Source: Hysterangium stoloniferum
Lineage: Eukaryota; Basidiomycota; Agaricomycetes; Hysterangiales; Hysterangiaceae
Assembly (NCBI GenBank): GCA_015178975.1
Contig: WHVD01000038.1
Coordinates: 434,001-498,000, forward strand
Direction: 5' to 3'
DNA: 64,000 nt
Below the pieces are notes generated by a model that saw only the letters and a list, made by a program, of their open reading frames with translations, ran no database searches and was not told the origin of the DNA. A program made the position numbers and the translations under genes. Of this stretch, positions 47,931-62,503 are shown in pieces. The stretch's first letter is position 1; every line of letters starts with the position of its first letter.

Positions 47931-48147
47931 AAGTCCTCCACTTAGCACAATTCAAAAATATCACCCACCAATTACCCAAAAAATGTGATTGTGATACTGG
48001 GATTACCACATGAGAGTCATCTGAACATTGTCCATTTGCATATTCTGGGTGTGGGTACCTGGTGCAGGCTATGTTGTGTCAGTGAAAAGACAATACCATC
48101 TCAAACCCATTACTTACCTGACACCACACGTGTGAGTACATGAACGC

Positions 48148-49433
48148 GAACCAGAATGTGGACAAGAATTTGAACCAGAATGCAAACCAGAATGTGAACT
48201 AGAACCAGGTCCTATTGTAAGCAAAACTTTTACTTATCTGTTCATTTTGACACTGTTTGCAGCATGAGCAATATCAGATCAAATCAGTTGTTTAAGGCAT
48301 AGTTTAAGGCATAGGACATTGAGAAAAAAGTTTAGGCAATACATAGACACTAGCAATTATTTTAGTTATACAGCAATCTACACACTATACCCCACTGAAC
48401 TCATAGTGTCCCTTACACTTGCCTCCTCCAACCCCAGTGCAAAAGTTAAACACTCCTATTCTCTATCACATTGATCAAGCTGCAGACTGTACTATGCAAA
48501 TGTTCCAGAGGTGTGTAAAACCTGTAGAGTATCTGTGAAAGAAAATGAGACATCTAAAAGGCCATGTTCATGCTTCATTAAGACAGGAAGAGAAATGGCA
48601 TTAGTCATTTAGTTATACCAGTCATCATGCCCTCTGCACAGTCCATGGCCCATTTTCCAATCCACCCCATCTGATGTCCCATATTTCGACAGCTGGACAG
48701 TCATCATTGCTCAATACAATCTGTTAAATCACTTAACAATGCAAAGTGGGATACAAGTGACCTCTTACAGAGACTTCTGTCTCGCATCCTGGACACCATC
48801 TCACACAGTTGTGGCAGACATTTGAAAAGACCACTTATAGTTTTGACTGAGGTAAACCTACCCAATATATCAGAACATCAGAACGATCCACCAATGAGCA
48901 TTGAACTTCCTACTGTTCTCGGATTGGAAAATGGGCCATGGACTGTGCAGAGGACATGATGACTGGTATGACTAAATGACCAATGCCATTTCTCTTCCTG
49001 TCTTAATGAAGCATGAACATAGCTTTTAGATGTCTCATTTTCTTCCATAGATACTCTACAGGTTTTACACACCTCTGGAACATTTGCACAGTACAGTCTG
49101 CAGCTTGGTCAATGTGATAGAAAACAGGAGTGTTTAACTTTTGCACTGGGATTGGAGGAGGCAAGTGTAAGGGACACTATGAGTTCAATGGGGTATAGTG
49201 TGTAGATTGCTGTATAACTAAAATAATTGCTAGTGTCTATGTGTTGCCTAAACTCTTTCCTCAATGTCCTATGCCTTAAACTATGCCTTAAACAACTGAT
49301 TTGGTCTGATATTGCTCATGCTGTAAATAGTGTCAAAATGAACAGATAAGTAAAAGTTTTGCTTACAATAGGACCTGGTTCTAGTTCACATTCTGGTTTG
49401 CATTCTGGTTTAAATTCTTGTCCACATTCTGGT
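48148..49433. repeat. Large palindrome, about 515-bp arms
   Basis: Arms 48148-48663 and 48919-49433 are close reverse complements around a loop of about 255 bp. Paired positions sum to about 97,581 throughout (for example the aggtcctatt of the left arm with its complement at 49364-49373). The outer ends of both arms are the 12-bp minisatellite. Indels are small and sequence identity looks high. Confidence 0.9.
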
Positions 49434-49712
49434 TTGCATTTGCATTCTGGTTCACATTCTCATCCATGTTCTGGTTTGCATTCTGGTTTGTATTCTCATC
49501 CATGTTCTGGTTCACATTCTGGTTTGTGTTCTCATCCGTGTTCTGGTTCACATTCTGGTTTGTGTTCTCATCCGTGTTCTGGTTCACATTCTGGTTTGTG
49601 TTCTTGTCCACATTCTGGTTTGCGTTCTTGTCCACATTCTTGTCGGTGTTCTGGTTCACATTCTGGTTCACATTCTTGTCCACATTCTGGTTTGCATTCA
49701 CATTCTGGTTCA
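49378..49712 (-). repeat. 12-bp minisatellite, minus array
   Basis: Units such as cacattctggtt; read on the minus strand it gives NQNVDKN/NQNTDEN repeats. It overlaps the right palindrome arm and is cut by the W LTR at 49716, beyond which it resumes at 50276. Confidence 0.9.
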
Positions 49713-49715
49713 CGA

Positions 49716-50275
49716 TGTATTGACTGTCTAAGTCTAATACAGACCGAACGCGTATTGACTACTTAGTTCAATACGGTAGAGAGAAGTAGCTATCTAAAGT
49801 AAGGTAGATAGCTAGAACGGATAAGCAGAATCGACTGGTTAAGTGCGATTCTGGACAACTGCTCGAATGCAAGTAGAGTAGCTAGAGAGTCGAATAATAG
49901 AGTAGCATGGATGTAGTCCACGCGAGTTGAGATAAGGATCGAGTTTCAAACTGATACAGTTCGAAACTCAGTTTGAATGAGTAGCTAAAGCCCGTCTGTG
50001 ACGGTCGAGACGATACACCAATCACAACTTACAGGACACTACGGGTGTCTGGGTAAGTCGTGGTTGCGGTGTAAAAAGTGTCTGAGTTCTAAACTACAGG
50101 CGCTAGAATATATAAGTCTGGCATGTGTGCGCCCACAAGAGTCGATGTACCGCATACATAGGTCGTCGAACTAATTATAGATATAATGAAAGAGAGAAAA
50201 TAGAAATAATAAAGGAAATATAGTAAGAGCTCATCCGACTATATTTCCTGAGTGTATTTCGCCATACCTCTCACA
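49716..50275 (-). mobile_element. LTR, family W, reverse, in minisatellite
   Basis: About 560 bp that reads, reversed, TGTGAGAGG to TCAATACA. It matches 36319-36836 but lacks the last about 65 bp of the full W LTR. It splits one 12-bp array into two parts. Confidence 0.8.
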
Positions 50276-50450
50276 CATTCTCATCCGTGTTCTGGTTTGT
50301 ATTCTGGTTTGTGTTCTGGTTTGTATTCTTTTCCGTGTTCTGGTTCATGTTCTGGTTTGTGTTCTCATCTGTGTTCTGGTTCACATTCTAGTTTGTGTTC
50401 TTGCCTGCATTCTGGTTTGCATTCTGGTCTGCATTCTGGTTTGTGGGGAG
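50276..50450 (-). repeat. 12-bp minisatellite, continuation
   Basis: The same array as 49378-49712 beyond the W LTR, with units such as gttctggtttgt. It ends about 20 bp before the X LTR. Confidence 0.85.
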
Positions 50451-51924
50451 CCAGGCTGTGTGCAGGTAAGTGTTATGTATTTCTAAGCCTTTTATATTTT
50501 TTAAACAATTTCCCCTAACAAATTGTGAAAAATAATATTTAAATGTAATTATATCGTGACAACAAAATTGTACAATATTGCCTTGATTTATCTTGAATTT
50601 ATACAATTTATTTTGTATTTTTATCTTATAAATTGAGCAAGTTATCGAATTTCTACCTTTTATTCTTTTTTGATTAATATGCTGGCAACTCAGCGCTTAT
50701 TCACAATGCGTGAAAAGATCACGTGATATTCACATGACATTTCAAACTCCGACAACGAAGAAATGCGATGTGAAATAATCATGCATTATCAAGGTAAAAT
50801 ATAATTTATATATTATTATAATAAAATTATTATATTTATAATTAACTAAAAGTAAATATAATAATTATATAATAATATAAAACTGGCCACTGGTGCTTAT
50901 TACATGGCACACGGGAAAATCGTCGCAATGAGTGACAGTTGTCACAAGGGTGCACGACGGTCACAGAGGTGTGTGACAGCCACAAAGGTGTGTGACAGTC
51001 ACAAAAGCGCGCAACAGTCACAAAGGCGCGCAACAGTCACAACATGTGACAGTCACAAGACGTGAAGGGTGTCATACGTGCACACAGGCGCGAGAGCATT
51101 ATGTCATCATATATACTACTACAGTAAAAACCGGAAATTCCCTGGAATATTCCAGTGGCTTCCAAAGGAATAGTAGATAGTAGGTACTAATAATAGATAG
51201 AATATTGTAGAATATTCTATAATATTCCAGAAAGTTTTATTATCCCAAGAATATTCTATAGTGTCTTAGAAGTAGTTAGAACCTTCCACAATGCTCTAGA
51301 AAATTCTAAATGACATCATTCCTTCCAGAATGACATCATTCAATCTTCTAGAATCTTCTAAATGTCTCAGACCAAAATGTATATAAGGAGCTCAGCTCCA
51401 GCCTTGAAAATCAATCAATCAATCTTTACTACATTTTATCAGCCACATCAGTGTGCCACTGCAGCAAGCAGTTTATTCCACCCCTTGTTGGGCTGTTGGA
51501 CAAATAAATACAAATACTTAGTCACCTCTAGTTGAGCTGCTGACCTAAGTTATCTCAGAATCCCTTTGTCACCTCTTGTTGAGCTTCTGACAATAATCCT
51601 ACCCCCTGGTCACTCTTCTGACCAATCAGGATTCCCTGCCACCTCTTGTTGAGCTTCTGGTATTAATCCTTTATACTATAGTCATCTCTTAATTGAGTAC
51701 CGATTATTAGTTTTCTTTACATTGTTATTTGTAGTCTAAAACTTCAGTCACCTCTAGTTGAGTAATTTGACTGTTTATTACATTGCAAATAATCCCATTC
51801 CTTTGTTCATTTATTGTGAATCAGTAAAGCATATTCATATAAATAAATACTGAGAATATCCTTGCAGAATCCTTAAGACTACATTAAGATCCTGATAAGT
51901 TAGTATCACAGTAGACCTTGTAGG

Positions 51925-52729
51925 TGTTACGACCGGACAAATCCCGCCGGACTCCGGGCACTAACTCGTACGCCCCCACACGCTACAAGCACCAATCGTC
52001 TGTTTATAGGATTTCCCGCCCGGACTCCGTTACGTTCGACCTCATTAAGACACATATCAGTCACCGGACTTCCCCCGGACCCCGTCTCTGTCTATGTCCG
52101 TCTTCGTCCCACGCATCAGTCACCGGAACCCGCTTAGAATCCTGTCACCGCTCTAATCGAGCCCCGTTCCCGTTTTAGTCAAATGACCTGTCACGATTTA
52201 GGACTCCGCTCCCGCTCCGTTTCCCGTTATGGGTTATGCTTTGTCACGATTCGGACTCCGCTCCGTTCCGTCCCGTTCCTAACACCAATTTGGTGTTTAC
52301 TATTCCCGTTTTATGTTTTGCTCGTTTCGTCTCATTATTACTGGATTCGGTATGTCATGCATTCCACGGTCTATATAAACTGGCAGATGTTGTACATACA
52401 ATCCAGTCAGAAAATTAGCTTAGATTCCCCCCAGTAATCTAATACATTTTCCTCTCTAAAAACCTACTCTTATCAGACCGCTCGCACTAGTCGGAGCCCA
52501 CGGGCTCCGGCGCATCTATCTCTCTCGACTATCTCGATTCACGACTCTCGACTCACGACCTACGACTCATGACCCACGAACCCCCGCCCGGACTCCCCGG
52601 GATTCCCGTCCGCCTGTCTGAAATTGGACAACACGATCTAGCGAGGGCGCAGCCTATAAGCTGAAGCCAAGTCCTACTGGATATCCCGCGGGTTTCTCCG
52701 GAAACCCGGCCTGAGTGTGTATCCTAACA
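51925..52729 (+). repeat. CV1 5' LTR
   Basis: 805 bp, TGTTACGACCGG to TATCCTAACA. A ctatataaac TATA box lies near 52370. It contains three CGG-N3-CCG sites (51948, 52021, 52252) plus cggaccccg at 52076, and a longer inverted pair around cggagccc/gggctccg near 52490. Confidence 0.95.
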
Positions 52730-52765: not shown

Positions 52766-54055
52766 ATGCCACCAAGAAGAAGTACACGCGCACAGTCATC
52801 AATGCCTGGACCGTCGACTCTTCATTCCCCGTTAACTCTGTATACCAGTCAGACGCTTGCGAACCAGTCGGAACCCATGGAAGAAGCCTGCATCGAAGAA
52901 ATCCCGGAAGACCTGGACGAATCCGAGCGCGAGGACGATTCCGTGGCCCCCGACAAGGGCAAAGGTGTCGAAATCCCTCCTGAAAATCCTCCGCCTTTTC
53001 AACGACCGAACACGAGGGATCCTACTTCTGAGTTTTTAGCAGGTACTATAGATAAATTCATGACGCACCTGCTAGAAGAACGAAAAAGAAAGGAACAAGA
53101 ACCTCCACGGTCAAAAGTCAATGCTCCGGAACCCTTCACGGGTTCCAACCCAAACAAACTCTCTACTTTCCTCATGCAATGTCACTTCAATTTCCGCGAT
53201 CGCGCCGCTGCATTCTCCACGGACTCCCGAAAAGTCAACTACGCACTTTCAAATTTGTCGGGATCCGCGTTGAAATGGTTCGAACCGGCTTTTAGCGGGA
53301 TTACCGAGGAAGAGCCGCTCTGGCTTGAAAATTGGGAAGCTTTTGTTGAGGAGCTTGAAACCAACTTCGGCCCGTATGACCCGACAGGAGAAGCTGAGAA
53401 TAGTCTCACAAATCTTGGTATGAAGGACACGCAGCGCATCACGGACTACATCGTCCAATTCAATAATCTTGCAGCTCGTTGTCAGTGGGGCGATCCCGCT
53501 CTCCGCCACCAATTCTACGCCGGTCTGCCGTCCCGCCTTAAAGACGAAGTCTCGAAAGGAGAAGATGGCAAGCCAAAAACCCTGTCCCGTATGCGCCTCA
53601 AAGCTCAAAACGCGGACGCACGTTATTGGGAACGTCGCGCGGAAGTTGCCCGCGAGACATCCGCGGACAAAATAAACAAGTCCAAGGACAAAAACAATAA
53701 CACCAATTCGTCAACCAGCAACCAGAACTCCACACAATCCGACAAGAAGAACAATAAAAAGTCTTCAAACAACAACAACAATAAGGACAATAAGGACAAC
53801 AACAAGGGTCAACAGTCCGGCAAGCAAGTCGGAAAACCCGACCTCTCAGGCAAACTCGGACCTGATGGCAAATTGACTCCACAAGAAAGACAACGTCGTA
53901 TGGACAACAACCTCTGTCTCTTGTGCGGGAAACCCGGTCATCGAGTCCCGGAATGTCCGCTGGCAAAAGCAAACTCTTCAAAGGGTCGATCAGCCAAGGC
54001 CTCCACGGATACCCCGTCGAAGGACAAACCGGCTGCCGATTCGAAAAAAGAGTAA
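52766..54055 (+). mobile_element. CV1 gag
   Basis: 429 codons. The capsid-like region holds APEPFTGSNPNKLSTFLMQ and LSGSALKWFEPAF, followed by the INDYI-like QRITDYIVQFNNLAARC. A Lys/Asn-rich low-complexity stretch comes before a CCHC zinc knuckle (CLLCGKPGHRVPEC). The end overlaps the start of the pol frame by about 130 nt in a different frame, which fits the frameshifting used by this family. Confidence 0.93.
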
Positions 54056-57000
54056 GCAACCCCGCGGGCTCCGCGCGGGTTAGGGGTTGCGTTGCCTCTC
54101 CGCGCATTCAAGAGTTCACTCGCCTCAACGCATCCACTCTTTCACATTCTGATTCATTTTTCGTTAAACTTATGTCTAATATGATCCCGAAATTCGTTTT
54201 TTCAGCTCTCATAGATTCCGGCTCGACTCATTGTTTTTTAGATACAAAATTCATGCAAAAAAATTCTTTGTCAACTTATTCGATAAATCCCATCGGTCTC
54301 CGCCTCTTCGATGGCACAAGTAATTCGGTTGTTACCCAAGCTTGTGATTTACCCATCAGTTTCCCTTGTGGAACATCCCAATTGGTCACTTTCTATGTGA
54401 CCCAGTTAGACTCAAGTTGCTCGGTGGTTCTAGGACATAACTGGCTTACCCGCTACAATCCGTTGATTGACTGGATAGCTAACAGTATAACATTCCGGAC
54501 TCCCGCGGCGACCGAGGAAACTGCGCCTGTCTCGGCCTCCATGGCACCCATGGCCTTCCCAGCACCTGCAGTCTCGAGGACTCCTGTGATCCCTACGGCA
54601 CCTACAGCTTCCCCGGAACCCACGGCACCTCCGTCCATTTCTCTGATTAATGCTGCAGCTTTTATTAGGGCTTCAAAAATGGATGGGTCCCAGGCGTTCA
54701 CTATCAACTTAAAAATTGATGAAGCAACTGGACGTTTCTCAACCCCAGTATCCGAATCTGAGCAAGCTGCTGACCTAGAAGGCGTCCCGGAGAAATACCA
54801 TGACTTCGCGGATGTTTTTAGCAAGCGAAAAGCTGACCGGCTTCCGCCTCACAGAGAATATGACTTAAAAATCGATCTTGAAGATGGCGCCCAGCCACCC
54901 CTAGGACATATTTACCCGCTTTCGTCCACGGAACTATCCGCAATCCGTGATTTCCTGGATGAACATTTGTCCATAGGTTTTATTCGACCCTCAAAGTCTC
55001 CTTTTGGAGCACCTGTTTTATTTGTCAGAAAAAAGGATGGATCCCTTCGACTATGTGTTGATTTTAGAGGACTCAATGCTGTCACCAAAAAGGACAAATA
55101 TCCACTCCCACTTATATCTGACCTGCTTGATGCTCCGCGGAATGCCCGGATTTACACCAAAATAGATCTCAAGCACGCCTATCATTTGGTCCGGATTGCC
55201 GCGGGCGACGAATGGAAAACCACTTTTAGAACCCGCTATGGGGCCTTCGAGTGGTTGGTCATCCCTTTTGGACTCACTAATGCCCCGTCTGTTTTTCAGC
55301 GTTTTATCAACGACATTTTCTCCGACATGCTCGATGTATGCGTCATTGTTTACTTGGACGACATTCTTATCTACTCCGAGAATCCCGCGGAACACGACAA
55401 ACAAGTCCGTGAGGTTCTCCGGAGGCTCAGACAACATGGTTTATTTGCAAATGGTAAAAAATGTACTTTTGACACGGACTCCGTGGAATACCTAGGTTTC
55501 ATGATGGGACCCAATGGACTCCGCATGGACGAAACTAAAGTACAAGTCATCAAAGATTGGCCCGAACCCCGAAAAGTTAAAGATATACAATCCTTCCTCG
55601 GCTTTGCCAATTTTTATAGACGTTTTATCCGTGGATATTCCGACATCACGGTACCCCTTACCCATCTTACGTGTAAGGGTACTCCGTGGAACTTTAACGA
55701 TAAGTGTCAAAAAGCTTTCAATCTTTTAAAAAATTCTTTTTCCACAGCTCCTATTCTGTCGCATTGGAAACCGGACTTCCCGCTCATTGTTGAAACGGAC
55801 GCCTCCGACTATGCACTTGGAGCCATTCTCTCTATCCAGGACTCCGACGGAGAAGTTCACCCCGTGGCTTTTCTGTCCCGGACTTTTACCGGAGCAGAGC
55901 TCAACTACGACGTTCATGATAAAGAACTTCTGGCAATCTTTTCAGCTTTCAAAGCGTGGCGACACTATTTGGAAGGTTCAGGAGCTCCTATTGACATTGT
56001 AACAGATCACAAAAACCTGGAATACTTTTCTACCACAAAACTCTTGACCCGCCGGCAGGCCCGCTGGTCTGAATATCTCTCCGCCTTCAACATGATTATC
56101 CGTTTTCGACCCGGCCGTCTCGGCGGCAAACCCGACGCTTTAACTAGACGATGGGACGTCTATCCTAAAGAGGGGAGCAACGACTATGCAACGGTAAATC
56201 CGCACAACCTGAAACCTATTTTCACGAATCAACAACTTACCGCATCGGTCCGCGCAACCTTCCTCGTCAATCCCATTGTCCGTGGAATTATCATTATGGA
56301 TATCGAGAAGTTACATCAAGATATTCTATCGGCAATTCCCCTAGACCCCATTACTAAAGCTCATCTAGACAATCCCGTGGACCCCGATCAACCTCAGTGG
56401 TCTCTTGATCAACATGGTTTCATTAGACTTGACGATCGTATCTATGTACCGGACTCCGACGGCCTCCGCCTCAGGATCCTTCAATACAAACATGATCATC
56501 CACTCTCAGGACATTTCGGGTACAACAAAACTCTATCATTAATAAGAAGAGAATATACTTGGCCCGGACTCCGTGGATTCGTTAAGCACTATTGTAAATC
56601 TTGCACTACTTGTCCCCGCTCGAAATCTCAGCGACACAAGCCATACGGCCTTTTGAAACAACTCCCGGTACCGGAACACCCGTGGAATTCTATATCTATG
56701 GATTTCATTGAACACCTACCGGATTCCGAAGGCTTTTCCGCTATTCTAGTCGTTGTTGACAGATTCTCAAAACAAGGTATATTCATCCCTACTTATGATA
56801 CAATTACGTCCGTGCAGTTAGCGGAACTTTTCATTATCCACGTATTTTCCAAGCACGGAGTTCCGTCCCACGTGACTTCCGATCGAGGATCAGAGTTCGT
56901 GTCTCACTTCTTTAGATCCCTCGGAAAATCCTTGGACATGACATTACATTTCACGTCTGGACATCACCCGGAAGGTGACGGACAAACCGAACGTGTCAAC

Positions 57001-57780
57001 CAGACATTGGAACAATACCTCCGCGTATATTGCAACTATCAACAGGACAATTGGAAAACCTTGTTACCACTTGCAGAGTTTGCTTACAACAATGCACCCT
57101 CGGCCACTACTGGTGTTTCCCTGTTCTTTGCAAATAAAGGATATAATCCAAATATTACAGTACATCCAGAACGAAATCTCGCCTCTGTTCGTGCTCAAGA
57201 GTTCACCACGGACCTCCACGAGCTCCACGAGGAACTCCGGACTGCAATATTGTCCGCCCAAGAGCAATACCAACATTCAGCAGACAAACACCAGATCCCG
57301 CCACCAAACTTCAAGATTGGCGACCGTGTTTATGTCAAAGCTCAATTCTTCCGGACTACCCGTCCATCAAAGAAGCTTGCTGAAAAATATTTAGGTCCCT
57401 TTGAAATTATCACACAAGTAGGTTCAGTTTCTTGGACTCTACGGCTTCCGGATAGCATGCGCGCGGTACACCCGGTATTTCATGTCTCTATGCTAGAACC
57501 TTGTACTGCTAACACTATCCCGGATCGCGTGCAATCTCCACCTCCTCCTGTCATCATTGACGGAGAACCCGAGTTTGAAATCTCTCAGATTTTAGATTCA
57601 AAAATTGACAAGCGTCGACGCACTTGTAAACTGCTTTACTTGGTCAAGTGGGCGGGTTACGAGGGCACCGATGAAGAAACCTCATGGATTTTGGCCACGG
57701 AACTCGGTAATGCCACGGAAATTGTTACTGACTTTCATACAGCTTACCCACTCAAACCTGGACCATTATCGTCTCTCTGA
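53923..57780 (+). mobile_element. CV1 pol with chromodomain
   Basis: Protease (ALIDSGSTHCFLD), reverse transcriptase (YLDDILIYS), RNase H (VETDASDYALGAIL), and an integrase zinc finger (HPLSGHFGYNKT... CKSCTTC) with the DDE core (MDFIEHLP, TSDRGSEF, PEGDGQTERVNQ). At the end is a chromodomain (LLYLVKWAGYEGTDEETSW), the mark of chromoviruses, thought to guide integration to chromatin marks. The open frame is longer upstream than the true pol; translation probably enters by frameshift. Confidence 0.95.
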
Positions 57781-57978
57781 CCGCACTCCGTGGACCCCGT
57801 GTTACGTTTGGACTCATTTTCATTATTCCCTGTCGCCCTATGTCTCTCTTTGCTTTTACAGGTTCTGACATGTCTGGTCAAGTCTTCAAGCGGACTCTCC
57901 GCGGACTTTGGCTTTGACTTTTATTTTTCTTTCACGCTTTACTTTATGTTCAATTACTTTCTATTTCTATGTTACTTT

Positions 57979-58963
57979 TCAGTCTACATTTATGGGACTG
58001 TTCTTTTTCCCTGCTTCCTCAGCTATCTCCTCTGGGAGCTCCGCGACCTCCGCGGCAACCCCGTCCTCATCCGATCCGGCATCCTCGGAACTCCCGACTT
58101 GTGGCTCCTTATATACATAGCCGCCATACTCCGCCAGGAACTTCCAAAACTCCTCGCGGAGTCCGGACAGCTCCTTGGCCACCACAATTTGGACCTTGTT
58201 GCTCTTCCGGAGCAACTCGTTTTGGGCCTCGATGCCCTCGGCGATCCGTCCAAGGACCTCGTCCAACCCGGACAACCCGTCCGTCCCGCTTATGTCTCGC
58301 GCCCCGGATCCCGTGGCCTGCTCGTGCACAAGCGAGCACCTCGCCTTGAGGTGCGCGCATTGATAACATCCCGGCCCCCGGCCGGCCTTTCGGTTGCATT
58401 CCGTGTTCCAGTCGTTGCAACCGGAACACCGCGGCTCGTTCTGCGTCAGAAGACGGACTGGCGCCGCTTTCCTTGCCTTCTGTTGATATGGTCAGTTTCC
58501 GCGGGTATTCCTTGGACATGAGGCCTACCTTTTGGGGGCTCTCTGGCTCCCCCTCGGACTCCGACTCCACCTCTGTCGCTTTGCGCTGAAAATCACAAGT
58601 CAGTAAAAAACCGACAAGTTGAATATTGGGACTTACCTTTCCCGCAACAATGGCGGCCCTCTCCGCGGCCAACCGGGCTTTCTCCGCAGCCACCCGGGCG
58701 TTCTCCGCGGCCACTCGTGCAGCCTCCTCCGCCTCACATTCCCTCTCCTTTGCGGCCTCTTCCTCCGCGGCCAATGCTTCCTGGTACTCTCTGTCCAGGG
58801 CCTCCTCAGCCTCCCTCGCCTCTCTCTCTGCTGCTTCACGAAGCTGGCGCTGCTCTTCTCGCCACGCCAACAATTGGGCCGCCGTCCACGGCGCCCGATA
58901 CGGAGTGCCCGTGGAGGGCCCTGCTGTCGGCATTGGCTTGCGTGGTGTTGGTTTTGGTCCCAT
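57979..58963 (-). CDS. CV1 antisense gene: coiled coil plus Zn2Cys6-like cluster
   Basis: On the strand opposite gag-pol, three exon-like blocks (58637-58963, 58529-58585, 57979-58479) are separated by spacers of about 50 nt with clean GTAAGT...TTCAG and GTAGGC...ACAG ends. Their lengths sum to a multiple of three. Block one starts MGPKPTPRKPMPTAG and has a long Ala/Glu-rich heptad region (about residues 30-105) that should form a coiled coil. Block three begins with six cysteines spaced C-X2-C-X6-C-X9-C-X2-C-X6-C, the Zn2Cys6 spacing, then a leucine-rich helical part (LDEVLGRIAEGIEAQNELL) and an acidic tail. The usual basic residues between cysteines two and three are absent (NDWNTE). A minus-strand TATATAAAA lies near 59013-59023, about 55 bp upstream of the ATG. 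I infer a regulator of the element; a fortuitous antisense frame is unlikely given the splice sites. Confidence 0.75.
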
Positions 58964-59012
58964 AGTGACGAAGATGGGGGTAATAAAGAAGAAGAAATTT
59001 CTATTTTTTCAA

Positions 59013-59023
59013 TTTTTTATATA
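59013..59023 (-). promoter_or_regulatory. TATA-like box for the CV1 antisense gene
   Basis: The minus strand reads cctatataaaaaat here, about 50-60 bp before the antisense start codon and about 150 bp inside the 3' LTR edge. Confidence 0.5.
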
Positions 59024-59173
59024 GGCTCGTCGCGTTTGAACCTTACCTTCCAGATCACATGACTCTTTGACACATACGTGTAACCGACATGACTTTTGAC
59101 ACATGCGCGTAGCCGACAAGAACCTTATTTAGGTCTAGAGCCTCTTTGGGACTTCGGCATAAAGGGAGGATAC

Positions 59174-59978
59174 TGTTACGACCGGACAAATCCCGCCGGA
59201 CTCCAGGCACTAACTTGTACGCCCCCACACGCTACAAGCACCAATCGTCTGTTTATAGGATTTCCCGCCCGAACTCCGTTACGTTCGACCTCATTAAGAC
59301 ACATATCAGTCACCAGACTTCCCCCGGACCCCGTCTCTGTCTATGTCCGTCTTCGTCCCACGCATCAGTCACCGGAACCCGCTTAGAATCCCGTCACCGC
59401 TCTAATCGAGCCCCGTTCCCATTTTAGTCAAATGACCTGTCACGATTTAGGACTCCGCTCCCGCTCCGTTTCCCGTTATGGGTTATGCTTTGTCATGATT
59501 CGGACTCCGCTCCGTTCCGTCCCGTTCCTAACACCAATTTGGTGTTTACTATTCCCGTTTTATGTTTTGCTCATTTCATCTCATTATTACTGGATTCGGT
59601 ATGTCATGCATTCCACGGTCTATATAAACTGGCAGATGTTGTACATACAATCCAGTCAGAAAATTAGCTTAGATTCCCCCCAGTAATCTAATACATTTTC
59701 CTCTCTAAAAACCTACTCTTATCAGACCGCTCGCACTAGTCGGAGCCCACGGGCTCCGGCGCATCTATCTCTCTCGACTATCTCGATTCACGACTCTCGA
59801 CTCACGACCTACGACTCACGACCCACGAACCCCCGCCCGGACTCCCCGGGATTCCCGTCCGCCTGTCTGAAATTGGACAACACGATCTAGCGAGGGCGCA
59901 GCCTATAAGCTGAAGCCAAGTCCTACTGGATATCCCGCGGGTTTCTCCGGAAACCCAGCCTGAGTGTGTATCCTAACA
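59174..59978 (+). repeat. CV1 3' LTR
   Basis: 805 bp, the same length and ends as the 5' LTR. It retains the CGGACTCCG site at 59501; two of the three sites of the 5' LTR are not preserved here. Confidence 0.95.
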
Positions 59979-60527
59979 GTAGGTTAGTGTAAATAAAGCA
60001 TATATTAGCCAAATAGTGTTTTATTCTATATCTAATCTTTTGACCTGTTTATTAATATTTTTACTGTTTAATGAATAGTATAAAATATATATAAACTAGC
60101 TAGCATTGAAGTTAAATCTAGCTTCGGAATCAGTAAATTGTTATTCTTGTTTTAGTAGTTGTTATCACAGAAAAAGAACAAGCTTGCACAAGCAGCTCTC
60201 AAAACCTTCTTTGCGAAGTAGGGTGCATATATTCAAGTAAACTCTTGACTTCAGGGGTTCTAAGTCTATTTAGGCTGCCACTGATTAATATCAAATACTT
60301 AAATTATTTTACCTTGTAGTGAATTGAGTATTTGCACACTTTGATAGAGCATTGGACTCCTTTTTCCAGAAAATAATATTAAAATAAGGCTAATACATCA
60401 CAGCTATTCGAGAATCCTCGGGAACTAGACCATAACGACAAGGAGTACAAAGTAGAAGCTATAGTAGGACACAAAAAGCATCGAAATCAACTCCTTTTCC
60501 AAGTTCGATGGAAAGGATATGGACTGG

Positions 60528-62503
60528 TGTCATGTATTTCTAAGGTTTTTTCAATTTTTCACAATTTCCCCAAAACAAAATTCTTAACAAAGGCTCTTAA
60601 AATGTACTTATATTGCTATGGTAAAATTGTACAGTATTCCTTTGATTTATCTCGAAATTATGCAAATTATTTTGTATTTTTATCTAAAAATCTGAGTAGA
60701 CTACAAAATTTCTACTTTTATTCTTTTTTAACTATATACATGTATCTTCAAACCGGCCACCTGGCACTTATTACACAATGCGCAGGAATATTTATCACAA
60801 CAAGTGACAGTCATCACAATGAGTGACAATCGTCACAAAAGCGTGTGATAGTCACAAGGTGCAACGGGTGTCATATGCGCACTAGCACGGGAATATTATG
60901 TCATATTATGTCATCATATATATGCTACAATAGAGAATGGCGGAAATGTCTAAAACATTCCAAGTAAAATAGCTAAAATAGGATAGAAATAAAATTCAAT
61001 ATGTCTCTAAATGTCTCAGAGTGTATATAAGGAGCTCTGCTCCAGCCATGAAATATAACCAATTTTATCAATCCATTTATCAACACATCAGTGTATCACT
61101 GCAGCTAGCAGTTTATTGCCACCTCTTGTTGAGCTTCTGGTACCAATCAGGATTCTCTGTCACCTCTTGTTGAGTAATTTGAGAATAATCCTACCAATCA
61201 GGATTCCCAGTTACCTCTTGTCAAGTAATTTGACTATAATCCTACAATCAGGATTCCCTGCCACCTCTTGTTGAGCTTCTGGTATTAATCCTATACTACA
61301 GTCACCTCTTAATTGAGTACTGATTATTAATTTTCTTTACATTGTTATTTATAGTCTAAGACTTCAGTCACCTCTAGTTGAGTAATTTGACTGTTTATTA
61401 CATTACAAATAATCCCTCTACATTGTTATTTGTAGTTAAAGACTTCAGTCACCTCTAGTTAAGTAATTTGACTGTTTATTACATTGCAAATAATCTCTGT
61501 TCCATTGTTCATCCATTGTGAATCAGTAAAGCATATTCACATAAATAAATACTGAGAATATCCTTGCAAGATCCTAAGACTACATTAAGATCCTGATAAG
61601 TTAGTATCACAGTAGACTGTCACAAACGTACAAACTCAATTTTCGATAATATTCAATTTAATATTTCTTCGACATTCCTTCGACTTTCTGACTCAATTTC
61701 TGACTTGACTTCCGACTTGACTATTCTTCGACAATATCTTTGACTTGTCTCAGGTTGATGTCATTGATGATTTCACTTTGATATTATATTATCATCATAG
61801 GTAAATGATATATAGTATATAAGGGCAATGATAGGAATGAAGGAAGTCAGTCAGAAAATCTGTACTATATTATATTATTTACTGTATTATATAATCGTTA
61901 AACTTTTTCTGAGCCTTTCTTCGACTTATTTATTCATGAGCCTCTGTGTCCTATCTTTGCCTCACACTTTATCAACAGGACGAATTAATACTTCATCGAA
62001 TGAGGCATCTTTACTCGATATTGTTGAATATTCTTCAATTGTTTATTTGACTTTATTGAGTAAAATTCGATTCATGACATAGACCCTGTAGGTTAGTGTA
62101 AATAAAGCATATATTAACCAAATAGTGTTTTATTCTATATCTAATCTTTTGACCTGTTTATAAATATTTTTACTGTTTGATAAATAGTATAAAATAAACT
62201 AACTAGAATTGAAGTTAAATCTAGCTTTGGAATCAGTAAATTCTTATTCTTATTTTAATAGTTGTTGTCACAGAAAAAGAACAAGCTTGCACAAGCAGCT
62301 CTCAAAACCTTCTTTGCGAAGTAGGGTGCATATATTCAAGTAAACTCTTGACCTCAGTGGTTCTAAGTCTACCAAGGCTGCCACTGATTAATATCAAATA
62401 CTTAAATTATTTTACCTTGCAGTGAATTGAGTATTTGCACATTTTGATAGAGCATTGGACTCCTTTTTCAGAAAATAGTATTAAAATAAGCTAATACATT
62501 ACA
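60528..62503 (+). mobile_element. Solo LTR, family X, TSD ACTGG
   Basis: TGTCATGTATTTC to AATACATTACA with a perfect TSD, actgg (60523-60527, 62504-62508). It proves that X is an LTR with 5-bp target duplications. It has the TATA box (about 61023) and repeated CACCTCTTGTTGAG motifs. A Z solo LTR is inserted at 61618. Confidence 0.92.
61618..62079 (-). mobile_element. Solo LTR, family Z variant, TSD TAGAC
   Basis: 462 bp, TGTCACAAACG to ATTCATGACA, with a perfect TSD, tagac (61613-61617, 62080-62084). It is clearly diverged from the Z copies at 33-38 kb. Confidence 0.9.

Follow-up and report, generated by a model that had tools for sequence, protein, structure and literature searches.

What would a retrotransposon do with a gene that runs against its own gag and pol, and which DNA would the product of such a gene recognise? 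This question is raised by a stretch of 64,000 nucleotides from the fungus Hysterangium stoloniferum (contig WHVD01000038.1, positions 434,001 to 498,000), hereafter the window, in which a first-pass annotation had pointed to a chromovirus carrying an antisense, intron-containing gene of the Zn2Cys6 type.

The element and its antisense gene

The window contains a complete chromovirus, with both LTRs, gag, pol and, between pol and the 3' LTR, the antisense gene. On the plus strand the 5' LTR of 805 bp (51925..52729) is followed by gag (52769..54055; Retrotrans_gag over its cut-off, a CCHC-like knuckle under it) and by the open frame of pol (53866..57780), in which protease, RT, RNase H, integrase and chromodomain follow each other in this order, the chromodomain scoring 27.7 bits in Pfam (PF00385, cut-off 25.1). 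The 3' LTR (59174..59978, plus strand, again 805 bp) differs from the 5' LTR at 11 of 805 positions, and the target-site duplicate GTAGG is found at the 5' LTR and beyond the 3' LTR. With gag, the PR-RT-RH-IN order, the chromodomain and the LTRs present, the element is a chromovirus, that is, a Ty3/Gypsy element with a chromodomain. Related repeats flank it at 51373-51916 and 61017-61617, and it seems to have been inserted near or inside an older repeat. Just downstream, at 60383-60535, a chromodomain-like piece of another element was seen by eye, and a 418-bp inverted repeat (96%) adjoining arrays of 12-bp tandem units lies at 48143-49440 and 49371-50481.

The antisense gene runs on the minus strand from an ATG at 58963 to a stop at 57979, which is exactly the interval first annotated, and the exon-like blocks with GT-AG spacers described there turn out to be three exons that would give 294 aa after splicing of two introns, both in phase 0. 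Exon 1 (58637..58963) starts with the ATG and encodes a charged helix that looks coiled-coil-like by eye. Intron 1 (58586..58636, 51 bp, GTAAG...CAG) separates it from the short exon 2 (58529..58585), which reads RKATEVESESEGEPESPQK, and intron 2 (58480..58528, 49 bp, GTAGG...CAG) leads to exon 3 (57979..58479), with a cysteine cluster of the pattern C-X2-C-X6-C-X9-C-X2-C-X6-C, a long predicted helix, an acidic tail and the stop. The region upstream of the antisense ATG (58964..59173) is conserved; indeed, the p-distance among copies is 0.034 in these 210 bp vs 0.070 in the LTR, 0.078 in the gap between pol and the gene and 0.092 in the introns. By eye it contains the TATA-like box TATATAAAA on the minus strand at 59023-59015, which places it 52-60 bp upstream of the ATG, in line with the distance of about 55 bp given earlier. 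A tandem with a unit of about 30 bp (GTCGG.TAC...ATGTGTCAAA..GTCATG, by eye) occupies 58964-59110, and a similar stretch is found in one copy in the related group B described below. This tandem may hold antisense promoter elements, and the sense polypurine tract presumably also lies within 58964..59173.

Comparison of copies across the genome was used to follow the selection acting on the gene. A search with exon 3 gave 1362 candidates, of which 150 were scored; about 108 of these 150 (hand count) match exon 3 without a stop. For 50 copies, namely the window's own, 29 further top-scoring and 20 lower-scoring ones, the pooled dN/dS in the frame of the gene is 0.32 for exon 1 and 0.24 for exon 3. 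The other two frames of the antisense strand give 0.97-1.37 in the same copies and the sense-strand frames 1.11-1.64, except for one sense frame at 0.38 and 0.32, which we take to be the frame whose third positions pair with those of the gene. Diversity differs between the three codon positions of the gene (pi 0.030, 0.032 and 0.075), and in the 37 copies in which the gene model is fully open the mean intron distance of 0.084 is close to the dS of 0.094. For the 21 rows that include pol sequence, dN/dS is 0.19 in pol and 0.26 and 0.38 in the two exons, which puts the gene close to pol.

GT-AG is found at both introns in 48 of the 50 copies and intron loss in none. The introns that the first-pass annotation expected to be kept in an antisense gene are thus present in 50/50 copies, with matching sites in two sister groups, as expected if the genomic RNA keeps antisense introns unspliced. 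The dN/dS comparison that it had proposed supports a gene under purifying selection, with 0.24-0.32 in the frame of the gene and 37/50 copies fully open. A chance open reading frame is ruled out by the frame-specific dN/dS, the conserved introns and the homologues in two groups. A sense-strand gene at the same place was considered and rejected, as even the best sense frame (0.32-0.38) is constrained more weakly than that of the gene. Judged by its pattern of substitutions, the antisense gene is a protein gene of the spliced type under purifying selection.

The zinc cluster and its homologues

Further elements of the genome were sampled via RVT_1. Two groups have a pol that is 81-83% identical to that of the window's element (group A): group B, consisting of L051, L052, L056, L061 and L062, and group C, represented by L057. 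An antisense positional homologue with a Cys cluster is found in L056, L061, L062 and L057. In L056 and L057 both intron sites match those of the window's gene by eye, including the short exon 2 (RKA...SPK). Compared with the exon-3 protein of the window, those of groups B and C show 27-31% identity, and the long exon-3 frames of L056 and L061 part ways ahead of the acidic tail. The four aligned Zn regions have as invariant residues six Cys, one Gly and one Lys; the middle stretch of the Cys spacing is X9 in group A and X10 in groups B and C. The B and C proteins have many further relatives in the genome, with identities down to 66-72% within the 150 scored for each, and three of these loci were read.

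The elements L051 and L052 keep exon 1, with its helix, open and L052 also retains exon 2, but exon 3 with the Zn cluster is missing from both. This loss is not general in the group of L051, because other loci that share its RT score match exon 3 at a distance of about 2.4 kb. Elements of the L051/L052 type might rely on full copies in trans, or they might give rise to dominant-negative partners. The distant chromoviruses L053-L055 (pol 41-42%) have no such gene in the stretch that was read. No Cys cluster was seen in L063, which is less closely related (61% identity over the RT part), is partly overlain by a fragment of another element and has frequent 8-mers of its own, TTCGACAA and TCGAAGAA. 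Protein searches for distant relatives returned at most two Hysterangium proteins, and at the sensitivity used no relatives outside the species were found in protein searches, viral_contigs scans or tblastn of plasmids.

Conservation of this kind also bears on the idea that the antisense transcript acts as RNA by interfering with gag-pol, the protein being incidental. Regulatory antisense transcripts are discussed for retroelements (PMC7264820), yet constraint in a single frame (dN/dS 0.24-0.32), 37 fully open copies out of 50 and a Cys signature kept across groups though the exon-3 proteins are only about 30% identical all disfavour this explanation, which we already regard as scarcely credible.

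Which protein, then, does the gene encode? Zn2Cys6 clusters follow the spacing rule C-X2-C-X6-C-X5-12-C-X2-C-X6-8-C, and the antisense product and its B and C homologues obey this rule (PF00172). The Zn2Cys6 cluster of the first-pass annotation stands as far as this exact spacing is concerned. It is not a standard domain, however: the full exon 3 reaches 12.1 bits for the Pfam Zn_clus profile, under the gathering cut-off of 21, Pfam does not list Zn_clus for the full exons of L061, L062 and L057, and the halves of the cluster look swapped. In the best native alignments of the window, L061 and L057, the first half of the cluster matches the second half of the profile; the native L056 cluster aligns to the profile over its length in the ordinary order. 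When the four native clusters are cut out they score 10.6-16.7 bits, and exchanging their halves raises the score in 4/4 cases, from 16.7 to 23.3, 12.5 to 13.5, 12.4 to 13.9 and 10.6 to 15.9 bits. Only the swapped group-A cluster (23.3) passes the cut-off, the other swapped clusters remaining at 13.5-15.9 bits, and the gains in group B are small (1.0 and 1.5 bits). In the Gal4 control, the same exchange lowers the score from 48.3 to 34.6 bits.

The invariant Lys sits at +4 after a CX2C, like Lys18 in Gal4, and it is found in the second half-cluster, not in the first. Lys18 of Gal4 has a role in recognition (PMC5559640). AF2 gave one long helix for the antisense product at low confidence (mean pLDDT 46.5 and 56.8 in two models); Foldseek returned no match for these models (best mean pLDDT 56.8), and VIA was likewise empty. 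From the spacing and the profile scores we take the product to be a putative half-swapped Zn2Cys6 protein.

CGG pairs in the element groups

In the window's element, k-mer counting gave TCCGTGGA, TCCGCGGA, CGGACTCC(G) and CGG-N5-CCG. A pair scan then covered all triplets at spacings of 0-20, direct and inverted (2,688 tabulated combinations, about 2,000 of them distinct), against block dinucleotide shuffles. In group A the CGG pairs rank first, with 23 observed vs 2.5 in the shuffles for inverted N5 and 23 vs 2.6 for inverted N3. CGG inverted N3 ranks first in both sets of group B (24 vs 2.0, and 17 vs 2.0 in B2) and CGG direct N6 in group C (20 vs 3.3), the B and C counts being inflated by repeated LTR sites and overlapping palindromes. 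CGG pairs are absent from the top-ten lists of L053, L054, L063, L064 and 46 kb of host DNA. Group-specific CGG pairs accompany the gene, and the Cys/Lys signature of its product is conserved. The pairs also differ in their flanks: those of group A read CGGA-N-TCCG or CGGR-NNN-YCCG, those of group B TCGG-NNN-CCGA, with a spacer that is near random and with half-sites and flanking T/A fixed or strongly preferred. The direct N6 of group C is reminiscent of Hap1, and TCCGYGGA of the Pdr1/3 element.

The motifs of groups B and C had been discovered in the 3' halves, so that their 5' halves, obtained afterwards, could serve as a hold-out; the 5' LTR was removed because it repeats the 3' LTR used in discovery. 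In group B the inverted N3 pair is found 7 and 6 times vs 0.7 each (shuffle maximum 3); CCGATCGG (1 each) and TCGGCC (3 vs 1.3 and 1.5) stay within the shuffles and are not upheld. In group C, direct N6 gives 7 vs 0.8 (maximum 4), a class first noticed when both C halves were scanned together, and TTCCGA (10 vs 2.7, maximum 7), TTCCGAC (4 vs 0.4, maximum 2) and also inverted N5 (3 vs 0.4) are found in excess. Group A has no clean hold-out: gag was part of the first scan, and the 5' LTR lay outside it although the 3' LTR had been viewed earlier. Taken alone, this 5' LTR has 6 CGG-N3-CCG vs 0.6 (maximum 4) and 5 GGASTCC vs 0.2 (maximum 3). Additionally, it was predicted in advance that CGG pairs would come first, or loosely among the top three of the 2,688 combinations, at three further loci, none of which represents a new group. 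This held for 2/3 loosely and 0/3 strictly, as the CGG pair ranks 2 in L065 (group C, with the same direct N6), 3 in the rearranged L066 (CCG-N2-CGG) and 25 in the mostly truncated L067.

Could these motifs be real and still unrelated to the antisense protein, either as sites of a host factor or as a mutational or codon-pair habit? All three groups are rich in CGG overall, and the excess over synonymous-codon shuffles is modest in group-B pol, where the best 6-mer in L061, CCGAAG, gives 9 vs 2.6. In group-A pol, however, the same shuffles give 14 vs 1.8 for CGG-N5-CCG and 11 vs 1.6 for CGG-N3-CCG, and in group C TTCCGA is in clear excess (TCGGAA 15 vs 4.7). A codon-usage artefact as the source of the motifs was rejected on these grounds, clearly for group A and for TTCCGA of group C and weakly for group B; a hairpin or RNA origin was rejected as well, since everted N0 and direct N6 pairs do not fit it. 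The motif sites in pol fall in all three codon phases. Group A has 35 sites in pol when overlaps are counted separately; 15 of them encode residues that are identical in B, and at 13 of these 15 the motif is missing in B. At a few positions in pol the two groups have an inverted N3 site over the same codons, the spacers having changed; few as they are, these shared sites fit selection on the half-sites. Three groups of one genome with three geometries, pairs missing from the top ranks of four other LTR-element loci and of host DNA, the use of every codon phase and the pair types beyond hairpins together make an origin unrelated to the protein distinctly unlikely in our judgement.

The sites are dispersed over group A's element. 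Between 51925 and 58963 we counted 23 CGG-N5-CCG, 23 CGG-N3-CCG and 37 CCRCGG/CCGTGG, in classes that can overlap, and no tandem arrays are seen among the listed sites. Per kb there are 13.7 sites in the 5' LTR, 9.3 in gag, 10.5 in pol and 18.3 in the antisense gene; none of the three counted classes occurs in 58964..59173, upstream of the antisense ATG. This distribution bears on a more conventional explanation, in which the protein is a promoter regulator of the element, an activator or a repressor limiting copy number, that acts mainly at the LTR, like HBZ, the spliced bZIP protein with a coiled coil that acts against Tax. An antisense, 3'-located gene for a helical factor of nuclear type is indeed HBZ-like, and the 5' LTR is rich in sites, above the shuffles by itself for CGG-N3-CCG and GGASTCC. 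But the sites are dense in gag, pol and the gene as well, pol-wide sites would be needless for such a role and the gene's own upstream region has none, so that we consider a regulator of this kind unlikely. The earlier suggestion that the product may regulate the element is thereby supported in one part, as dispersed group-specific CGG pairs favour an action on the element; because they cover the whole element and not the LTR only, it is better read as self-recognition along the body of the element.

Candidate functions and known systems

Because the gene-bearing elements carry dispersed, group-specific pairs of the Zn2Cys6 type, the protein is most simply read as recognising the DNA of its own group. 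The product of the antisense gene would be a nuclear protein with a zinc cluster whose halves are swapped, and its long helices would serve oligomerisation. This protein would bind paired CGG half-sites, which have accumulated across LTRs, gag, pol and antisense gene and whose orientation and spacing are specific to each group of elements, and would mark, in trans, the DNA copies of its own group. We infer the binding of CGG pairs from the match between cluster type and motif type, and consider it probable on balance that a nuclear, half-swapped zinc-cluster protein binds the group-specific pairs and marks its own group's DNA. The elements L051 and L052, which are without exon 3, weigh against this reading.

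The purpose of such marking is a more tentative matter. Copies of the element show strong CpG decay, with singleton C-to-T changes at 0.357 per CpG site vs 0.077 elsewhere (55400-59982 and 20 copies). This decay may be the mark expected from cytosine methylation of repeats, and because of this CpG-to-TpG trace the copies may be silenced. Together with the parallel to VANC discussed below, the trace makes anti-silencing of family copies against CpG methylation a first guess and the likeliest purpose, though at well under even odds. Motif CpGs vary among A copies like other CpGs (shared at 103/194 vs 252/472), and non-CpG motif letters vary somewhat less, a weak signal.

Sites along the whole body would also be consistent with a protein that binds the element cDNA or the pre-integration complex along its length, for nuclear entry, for protection or for directing integration to marked copies; for plant antisense ORFs, a possible part in bringing the pre-integration complex into the nucleus is discussed (PMC7264820). 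The stretches read of the chromoviruses L053-L055 contain no such gene, however, and we regard this role as highly improbable. Self-recognition may reach further than this one element. Slightly short of an even chance, in our estimate, is the broader proposal that fungal LTR retrotransposons have evolved their own self-recognition, in which CGG pairs throughout the element, coding sequence included, would be bound by a half-swapped Zn2Cys6 protein that an antisense gene with introns encodes. Each family would have switched its pair geometry with its protein, the two coevolving; the DNA code may bend amino acids of pol, and the whole would be a counterpart of VANC anti-silencing. The proposal matters since the element's own DNA predicts the target of the protein, different for each sister group, and is testable by a binding assay.

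Antisense genes of this placement have precedents. The first-pass annotation held extra genes to be rare in Gypsy elements, which is not the case for antisense ones between pol and the 3' LTR in plants: Grande gene23, RIRE2 and Retand TRP28 all lie there, with nuclear or predicted DNA-binding products, and the Grande gene has its own promoter (PMC7264820, PMC11963269). The gene described here shares this position and differs in its zinc cluster and group-specific self-motif, which the parts of these two papers that we draw on do not mention for the plant genes (PMC7264820, PMC11963269). HBZ of HTLV-1 is nuclear and critical for the viral life cycle (PMC11963269), and the HTLV antisense promoter lies inside the 3' LTR (PMC7264820). 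Like HBZ, the Hysterangium gene is antisense and encodes a putative nuclear factor; unlike this bZIP protein with its 3' LTR promoter, it has a zinc cluster and a TATA-like box just outside the LTR. What antisense genes do in LTR retrotransposons is treated in the literature as an open question (PMC7264820, PMC11963269).

On the protein side, Zn2Cys6 factors bind inverted, direct or everted CGG pairs, typically as dimers via a helix after the cluster (PMC5559640, PMC12719309). The antisense product resembles the fungal regulators Gal4, Hap1, Leu3 and Pdr1/3 (PF00172) in its six-Cys spacing, the helix after the cluster and the CGG half-site pairs that go with it. It differs from them in that the half-clusters are apparently swapped, the score is below the Pfam cut-off and the gene is encoded by a retrotransposon. 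Searches of openly licensed PMC papers on antisense, zinc-cluster or chromovirus genes listed no fungal retroelement with an antisense gene for a zinc-cluster protein, nor the combination of such a gene with a CGG-pair code.

The closest parallel is VANC of the Arabidopsis VANDAL elements. Proteins of sister families have different targets there, and short family motifs, located in tandem repeats of non-coding regions, are multiplied in the family's own copies; binding and demethylation have been shown (PMC5735166). As in these Mutator-like DNA transposons, a fast-diverging protein encoded by the element is here accompanied by dispersed motifs that differ between groups, and three groups of one genome each have a short motif of their own, multiplied in their copies. 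Unlike VANDAL, the element is a retrotransposon with an antisense, spliced gene and with CGG pairs also in coding sequence; the binding is predicted only, and no homology is claimed. Should this reading prove true, fungal retrotransposons would have come independently to recognise themselves by multiplied motifs, would have extended these motifs into coding sequence and would have drawn on the Zn2Cys6 spacing code, which would offer DNA-targeting modules with definable spacing rules. Antisense genes at this place in plant Gypsy elements and multiplied-motif self-recognition in VANDAL DNA transposons are already known. What would be new is their combination in a chromovirus of a fungus, together with introns, a swapped zinc cluster and CGG pairs whose code extends into coding sequence.
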